Assembly: GCA_014874475.1 (NCBI GenBank)
Contig: JADBJJ010000028.1
Coordinates: 1 to 41,121, forward strand
Length of the DNA: 41,121 nucleotides
Reading direction: 5' to 3'
Source of the DNA: Chloroflexota bacterium
GTDB lineage: Bacteria; Chloroflexota; Anaerolineae; B4-G1; DUEL01
The notes under the pieces were generated by a model. That model saw only the letters and a list, made by a program, of their open reading frames with translations. It was not told where the DNA came from and did no database searches. Positions 33,219 to 36,498 of this stretch are shown in pieces (positions within the stretch are counted from its first letter, which is position 1; every line of letters starts with the position of its first letter). The position numbers and the translations under genes were made by a program.

Positions 33219-33247
33219 TTGACAATTTCCCTCATTCATTGTATACT
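33219..33247 (+). promoter_or_regulatory. Near-consensus sigma70 promoter of the proS-operon leader
   Basis: TTGACA (33219-33224), a 17-bp spacer and TATACT (33242-33247). This is the best promoter match in the window. Transcription should start near 33254. Confidence 0.85.
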
Positions 33248-33273
33248 ATAATCGCTCTTTCCAGAGGAGTCCG

Positions 33274-33324
33274 ATGGATACGTATCGCCTGCCCAGCCCG
33301 CCGGTCCCTGAGAGCCAGACCTGA
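33274..33324 (+). CDS. Putative Pro-rich leader peptide (16 aa)
   Basis: ATG 33274 follows AGAGGAG and encodes MDTYRLPSPPVPESQT before TGA. Four of 16 codons are Pro, clustered at codons 7-12 (CCC, CCG, CCG, CCT). The last three sense codons and the stop lie in the 5' arm and loop of hairpin 1. Its size, position and link to a proS operon fit a ribosome-stalling attenuator peptide. Such Pro content could also arise by chance in C-rich DNA. Confidence 0.45.
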   Translation: MDTYRLPSPPVPESQT

Positions 33325-33372
33325 TGGTCTGGTCGGGCGCGCTGGGCCGGCCCCTGTCCCCAGATATACCAG

Positions 33373-33403
33373 CCAGCCTCCCAGACCCGGAGGCTGGTTT
33401 TTT
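33373..33403 (+). terminator. Intrinsic terminator of the leader
   Basis: CCAGCCTCC (33373-33381) pairs perfectly with GGAGGCTGG (33389-33397), with a 7-nt loop and six T residues immediately after. It is a textbook Rho-independent terminator and the only one in the window with a full T-run. Confidence 0.9.
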
Positions 33404-33435
33404 ATAGGACGCAGATATGGCATGCTCGCCTCTAT

Positions 33436-33503
33436 CCAGGAAACGGAATCCGGCATTCTTGCGCGGCGGTCAATATTCAGCAACCCTCTATGGGGAGATT
33501 ATT
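33436..33503 (+). repeat. Dispersed intergenic repeat, copy B
   Basis: Matches copy A (8646-8710) over about 60 bp, beginning CCAGGAAACGGAATCCGGCA and sharing AATATTCAGCAACCC then TATGGGGAGA. It fills the space between the leader terminator and the metallophosphoesterase ATG. Confidence 0.8.
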
Positions 33504-33518
33504 GGGTGAGGTCAGCAA

Positions 33519-34147
33519 ATGAAAATTCTGGCCCTCAGTGACCAGGTGGTGGAGTCCATCTATAGCGCCGACGTTCGGGAGCGGTTCGGGGATGTGGGCC
33601 TGCTCCTCTCCTGCGGCGACCTGCCCTATTCCTACCTGGAATATCTGGTCACCTTACTGGGCGTTCCCGCCTTCTATGTCCACGGCAATCATGACCAGCC
33701 GGAAGACCTGGGCCAGGGGGAATTGCTGACCGGGCCGCGCGGCTGGGTTAACCTGGATGGCCGTACGGTGCGGGTGGGCTCTATCCTACTGGCGGGGCTG
33801 GAGGGCGCTCTGCTCTATAAGCCCAACGCGCCCTTTCAGTACAGCGAATGGGAGATGCGCTGGAAAGTTGTCCATCTGTTGCCGGCTCTCCTGTTCAACC
33901 GGCTGCGATACGGGCGGTATCTGGATATCCTGGTGACCCATTCCCCGCCTCTGGGCATCCACAACGACATTGATTTACCCCACCGGGGGTTTGCTGTCTT
34001 CCGGTGGTTGATGGAGCGCTTCCGTCCGCGCTACTTGCTGCATGGCCATAAGCACGTCTACAAGCCTCAGGCCACCCGTACCCGCTTCCGAGAGACTCTA
34101 GTGGTGAACGTGTACCCCGTTGCCGTTCTGGAGTTGGAGGACATCTG

Positions 34148-34148
<1 letters not shown>
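33519..34148 (+). CDS. Calcineurin-like metallophosphoesterase
   Basis: A 209-residue binuclear metallophosphoesterase. The signature residues appear in order: LSDQ (first Asp), SCGDLPYSYLEYL, YVHGNHDQPED, VTHSPPLG and HGHKHVYKP. Substrates of such small members range from phosphoproteins to cyclic nucleotides and are unknown here. ATG 33519 has only a GGTCAGC-like site. The stop overlaps the next start (TGATG). Confidence 0.9.

Positions 34149-36498
<2,350 letters not shown>

Follow-up and report, generated by a model that had tools for sequence, protein, structure and literature searches.

A candidate proline attenuator upstream of the prolyl-tRNA synthetase operon in a Chloroflexota bacterium

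Organization of the leader and the proS operon

The DNA analyzed here (the window) comprises positions 1 to 41,121, i.e. 41,121 nucleotides, of contig JADBJJ010000028.1 of a Chloroflexota bacterium (assembly GCA_014874475.1). It carries, between a gene for a TatD-family nuclease and three same-direction genes that overlap each other, a leader of about 150 nucleotides (nt). The last of the three genes is proS, which codes for the proline-transfer RNA (tRNA) ligase (Table 1). Comparing this leader with its relatives, we conclude that it is very probably a ribosome-mediated transcription attenuator of the proS operon, which would sense the charging of proline tRNA. It combines a sigma-70-type promoter, a translatable short open reading frame (ORF) near the transcription start with a cluster of cognate codons, a GGTCTGG element and an intrinsic terminator located before the first gene. 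The codons of the leader ORF are ATG GAT ACG TAT CGC CTG CCC AGC CCG CCG GTC CCT GAG AGC CAG ACC TGA; codons 7, 9, 10 and 12 specify proline, giving four prolines within the six-codon span 7-12 of MDTYRLPSPPVPESQT. Two promoter-like sites are found in 1.2 kb when both strands are considered, versus 0.3 in shuffled sequences, and most homologous leaders likewise have TTGACA- and TATACT-like boxes upstream. The computed fold of the leader RNA (33254-33404) is 4.2 standard deviations more stable than those of dinucleotide shuffles, none of 200 being as good.

An earlier interpretation made from the letters of the window alone (the sequence-only reading) had proposed most of this layout, and its parts were recovered at their places: the near-consensus promoter, the 16-codon ORF with prolines clustered at codons 7-12, the terminator with six T residues, the GGTCTGG with two alternative CCAGACC partners, to both of which (33315-33321 and 33381-33387) it is fully complementary, and the downstream genes ending in prolyl-tRNA synthetase. 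As a separate observation, a small hairpin (GCTCTTT/GAGGAGT) at 33254-33270 spans the Shine-Dalgarno sequence of the leader ORF, and a similar inverted sequence (TTTCCGGAGAAA) is seen in two related genomes (G001 and G002; G and L numbers are our handles for genomes and loci).

Table 1. Features of the leader and the proS operon, in window coordinates
Feature	Position	Strand	Remarks
Sigma-70-type promoter TTGACA-17-TATACT	33219-33247	+	11/12 consensus positions
Shine-Dalgarno sequence AGAGGAG of leader ORF	33263-33269	+	Read by eye; 4 nt before ORF
Leader ORF, MDTYRLPSPPVPESQT and stop	33274-33324	+	Proline codons 33292-33294, 33298-33303, 33307-33309
Arm 1	33287-33307	+	Contains proline codons; pairs with arm 2
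CCAGACC, local partner of GGTCTGG (hairpin P2)	33315-33321	+	69.5% of cells paired, 15 leaders
GGTCTGG switch element	33326-33332	+	Invariant across 15 proS-operon leaders
Arm 2	33331-33351	+	Pairs with arm 1, or GCTGG 33341-33345 with foot of terminator 5' arm 33369-33373
Intrinsic terminator	33371-33403	+	Stem 33371-33381/33389-33399; six T 33398-33403
CCAGACC in terminator 5' arm/loop, distal partner of GGTCTGG (antiterminator)	33381-33387	+	
Dispersed repeat, ~85 bp	33418-33502	+	Separates terminator from first gene; outside the switch
Calcineurin-like metallophosphoesterase, operon gene 1	33519-34148	+	Pfam PF00149
ORF of unclear function, operon gene 2	34148-35080	+	Weak DUF4032 match only
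proS, archaeal/eukaryote-type prolyl-tRNA synthetase	35065-36498	+	NCBIfam TIGR00408, 565 bits

Conservation of the leader and its alternative pairings

By DNA search the leader is detected in six genomes belonging to the genus and in one more from the family, and the upstream regions of metallophosphoesterase genes supply seven more aligned leaders from two families of the order, in which mazG often sits between the leader and the phosphoesterase gene. Related leaders occur upstream of proS, or of an operon of metallophosphoesterase, X and proS with or without a preceding mazG, across some ten families within the class, and homologous ORFs are seen in about 20 genera; the host genome (3.0 Mb, 32 contigs) yielded no convincing second copy of the family at E < 0.5. 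The encoded peptides differ from each other and are consistently rich in proline, e.g. RLPSPPVPE, RLPNPPAPE, RLPIPPAPE, RLPSPPEPEKP, YPNGPAPEMP and LSPPAPSRP, with NPPCPVEP and SPNSPNPTP among further homologs. The proline codons are retained where the adjacent codons vary, and in RPPSLPAPE they have moved with their number unchanged. All four proline codons are in use across the orthologous leaders.

The pairings were assessed on an alignment of 15 leaders, for whose selection gene position and sequence similarity were used and a CCAG-like element was not, with the terminator as the anchor for cutting. The GGTCTGG pairing may be the central part of a longer antiterminator, in which 33326-33332 and 33341-33345 would face 33369-33373 and 33381-33387. 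The distal GGTCTGG/CCAGACC pairing is kept in 99% of cells, a value that drops to 53% or less once the partner is shifted by one to three columns, and each of the three types of substitution in this helix preserves the pair via G-U. The local partner of GGTCTGG is paired in only 70% of cells. As GGTCTGG never varies, there is no two-sided covariation in the predicted distal helix, which is supported by the one-sided wobble changes and by relatives having lost the local partner. The terminator stem is paired in 100% of cells and includes nine doubly changed ones. The helix between arms 1 and 2 is likewise kept with altered sequence, being CCCAGC/GCTGGG in the window, CCCAAC/GTTGGG in G010 and CGCTCT/AGAGCG in G021, and is also found in G033. 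The sequence-only reading, which had recognized the layout of ribosome-mediated attenuation, is thus upheld in that the proline codons and the alternative pairing are both conserved in orthologous leaders.

Association with proS

The genomic contexts argue that the leader is tied to proS and not to the neighboring genes. In G006, a genome without any phosphoesterase match, it directly precedes an archaeal-type proS, as it does in G093 (MGRLSSTTRFVSPNSPNPTPDCRSG), G121 (MWFKQINPPCPVEPSDKPDLRSG) and G090 (MMLGFPLPCPIPRSFPAPGSG). In G057 (MFRSFGTFPRRPSPLPGHQSG) and G092 (MNSQQFALPSTPDTLSSPVSG) the gene behind it is the unrelated bacterial-type proS, and in G009 a proline-rich leader (MSNANLPIPSSFPPAPSRGLG) with a terminator lies ahead of a bacterial-type gene. 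The terminator nearly abuts the ribosome-binding site of proS in G006, G009, G090, G093, G121 and G057 and, hence, proS expression in these genomes should need read-through. Such a leader is absent from the majority of the remaining proS genes in the class.

The archaeal- and bacterial-type proS genes adjoin each other in G093 (L080/L238), G058, G128, G101 and G161; in G093 a proline leader precedes both types.

A wider family of leaders with other codons

When a covariance model built from the 15 proS leaders was run at E ≤ 0.001 against 396 genomes of the class, 75 had matches. A sample of 251 genomes from the phylum contained only five with a match, one of them outside the class, and the leader module appears to be confined to one Chloroflexota class. 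The weaker matches mostly belong to genes other than proS and carry different codons; the downstream genes were verified for representatives with NCBIfam. Arginine leaders are found before argC, argG and carA (e.g. ..IRRRTDERSDPASG, ..LRRSPRHTPDQWSG and ..VIRRKLAKKPDPRSG), and lysine leaders before the homocitrate synthase gene lysS and before lysX (..TKKSKAKKPDLRSG and ..IIKRAKKQFGNRPDWRSG). The arginine and lysine leaders have a common end, ..PDxxSG-stop, which corresponds to a hairpin CCAGAC-n-GTCTGG and then the stop codon, and CCAGAC usually recurs in their terminators. This module pattern alone occurs at 53 places versus about 12 for a reversed control; about a dozen matches with neither a leader nor a terminator were judged to be due to chance. 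Across 84,980 species genomes the complete module is found at 17 places, 15 of which are such leaders in Chloroflexota records.

The codons of these leaders agree with the genes that follow them. With one leader retained per genus and gene (47 leaders), proline accounts for 24% of the sensor residues in proS leaders, 12% in arginine leaders and 0% in lysine leaders, and the cognate residues reach 22% (arginine) and 24% (lysine) in the arg and lys leaders. In total, 139 residues match the downstream gene as against 78 with permuted labels, and none of 100,000 permutations was as high. A full complement of GTCTGG lies in the terminator 5' arm or loop of 44 of 51 leaders (mean 5.2 and maximum 12 with permuted cores), a count that is tempered by the automated set of the wider family having required a downstream CCAG-like element, which the covariance model may also favor.

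Other members depart from this plan. The lysX leaders L130-L134 have a GTCTGG-like sense copy in the terminator loop in place of CCAGAC, which suggests a different switch topology. Upstream regions of glnA, first noticed in L183 and then surveyed order-wide (L267-L296), contain in nine genomes of one sister family runs of glutamine or asparagine-glutamine (QQQQQQ, NNQQQ and QQQQQQQ) with a similar terminator, and none was seen in the window's own family; these are candidate glutamine attenuators, probably on the same chassis. Leaders of class II citrate synthase genes (L297-L305; first noticed in L189, L184 and L195) mix glutamine, proline and arginine codons (RQQIQPQPRPP, RQPIQPRPP, VNPQERPLKPRP and AQQPQP), raising the possibility of a multivalent sensor of glutamate-family amino acids.

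As a pattern, the class-wide leader family is strongly supported. We give even weight to the further proposal that it is a homologous family, whose 3' chassis (CCAGAC-loop-GTCTGG-stop and a terminator with CCAGAC) was copied between operons with a swap of the sensor codons, namely proline for proS, arginine for argC, argG and carA, and lysine for lysS and lysX; the glnA leaders and the citrate synthase leaders with glutamine, proline and arginine codons would be related to these and would jointly sense the glutamate family.

Folding models and the proposed mechanism

In nascent-RNA partition functions computed for 20 proS-type leaders, sequestration of the terminator 5' arm averages 0.72 when a ribosome is stalled at the proline codons, 0.45 when none is present and 0.37 when it sits on the stop codon. 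For the window leader the corresponding values are 0.61-0.79, 0.09 and 0.64. Antitermination in the window is present in models of partial transcripts and absent from equilibrium folding alone. Taken with the complementarities, the thermodynamic evidence points to a mutually exclusive antiterminator dependent on ribosome position, with equilibrium favoring the terminator.

From these elements we infer how stalling, termination, read-through and induction on proline shortage might proceed. The RNA polymerase would initiate near 33254, trailed by a ribosome translating the leader ORF. With ample prolyl-tRNA, the ribosome would clear the proline codons and arrive at the stop codon, where it would cover GGTCTGG, or else arms 1 and 2 (and P2) would close; the terminator 5' arm would then be left unpaired, the terminator would form and an RNA of about 150 nt would be released. 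With scarce prolyl-tRNA, the ribosome would instead stall at the proline codons within arm 1, allowing arm 2 and GGTCTGG to pair with the terminator 5' arm and CCAGACC, so that the terminator would be blocked and transcription would proceed into the operon ending with proS.

Apart from the way in which the wider set was assembled, several observations weigh against this interpretation. Equilibrium folding of the full-length window RNA favors the terminator even with a stalled ribosome; as the complete terminator wins irrespective of the ribosome, co-transcriptional timing must decide the outcome if the leader is an attenuator. In the window's genus, unlike most relatives, the stop codon precedes GGTCTGG and, hence, the window leader may need the ribosome to be released to reach its off state; a ribosome on the window stop codon also leaves arm 2 partly free, with the sequestration of 0.64 given above. 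Substitutions within the genus number 4, 8 and 5 by codon position, i.e. they show no third-position bias, and we therefore claim conservation only for the proline codons and not for the peptide as such. The T tract is weak in some relatives (G007 and G012), and three others (G013, G017 and G023) retain the terminator without a recognizable leader ORF.

The corresponding loci of the latter genomes (L039, L038 and L034, respectively) have a promoter and a typical terminator before mazG with hardly any ORF between them, and are possibly decayed attenuators.

Alternative explanations

An unlikely alternative is that the leader senses slow polyproline elongation, i.e. the activity of elongation factor P (EF-P), as in the proline-rich mgtL leader, and not the charging of proline tRNA. 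Most, though not all, proS leaders contain adjacent prolines, and effects of EF-P on leader attenuation are reported (PMC5021804); however, the proline codons are separated in YPNGPAPE (G010), SPNSPNPTP (G093), TPQPGPAP (G064) and IPQPGPEP (G099), the arginine, lysine and glutamine leaders of the same build cannot sense EF-P, and proS as the target suits a sensor of charging.

Less probable still is that the unit is a separate small RNA gene, upstream of the operon only by coincidence, and that the operon is transcribed from its own start site beyond the terminator. The promoter and terminator, both perfect, do delimit a unit of about 150 nt, and the 85-bp repeat, which has 11 further copies in the host genome, separates this unit from the first gene. 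Yet, the + strand is devoid of any further promoter-like site between the 33219-33247 promoter and 33519, including 33404-33519 and the repeat itself (33418-33502), so that the independent start just before 33519 that would have spoken against the sequence-only reading was not detected. The insertion of the repeat looks incidental. Moreover, the terminator abuts the proS ribosome-binding site in at least six relatives, the unit accompanies proS across differing gene orders and two unrelated types of prolyl-tRNA synthetase, and its codons agree with the gene family-wide.

The least probable idea is that the leader is a tRNA-binding T-box or another riboswitch with an incidental ORF: although T-boxes control synthetase genes and, in a different lineage of the class, a candidate lies upstream of proS (L078 of G117; 65.5 bits, E 4.7e-14, below the Rfam gathering score), neither a T-box sequence or specifier loop (RF00230) nor, tRNA genes excepted, any other Rfam family is found in the window or in 20 related leader loci, and the conserved feature is instead the in-frame cognate codons.

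Comparison with known systems

The attenuator proposed here for the proS operon is of the classical type. Like the trp, his, leu, thr and pheA attenuators, it has a short ORF with cognate codons, mutually exclusive arms 1-2-3-4 and a terminator before the structural gene. It differs from them in that it would sense proline and in the Chloroflexota-specific module CCAGAC-loop-GTCTGG-stop, which is repeated in the terminator and reused for proline, arginine and lysine. Leader-peptide attenuation reportedly also governs lysine biosynthesis in Thermus thermophilus, with lysine codons before genes of the alpha-aminoadipate pathway, resembling the lysS and lysX leaders described above.

Among synthetase genes, pheST of gammaproteobacteria and trpS and leuS of Streptomyces are under such control (PMC1262725), and hisS/hisZ attenuators are described in bacilli (PMC2965389). 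These share with the proS leader a peptide rich in the synthetase's own amino acid; our searches of the two papers found no case of proS named, and they concern phyla other than that of the window. The mgtL/mgtCBR leader of Salmonella likewise has an ORF whose proline codons affect downstream transcription (PMC3641672), but its targets (Mg transport, etc.) are unrelated to proline charging and its RNA structures are unrelated to those seen here. The T-box candidate upstream of proS in G117 shares its target with the window leader and presumably its signal too, uncharged proline tRNA; a T-box binds the tRNA directly, whereas the window leader would rely on a translating ribosome.

In the open-access literature, with subscription papers largely outside our scope, we found no account of proS attenuation, of attenuation in Chloroflexota or of a shared chassis with swapped codons. 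The mechanism is of a classical type, and its proline specificity, its proS target and the class-wide chassis are the aspects that we did not find described there. If the interpretation is right, the list of amino acids and synthetases governed by leader-peptide attenuation would grow by proline and proS, and Chloroflexota would gain this form of control. It would also bear on how attenuators evolve, with one RNA chassis whose specificity is altered by a few codons serving proline, arginine and lysine genes in a single bacterial group. As each part is a short stretch of DNA, codon swaps in a reporter could directly test the portability of this specificity. Finally, the conserved module could offer a means of predicting amino-acid regulons from metagenomes in these mostly uncultured bacteria.
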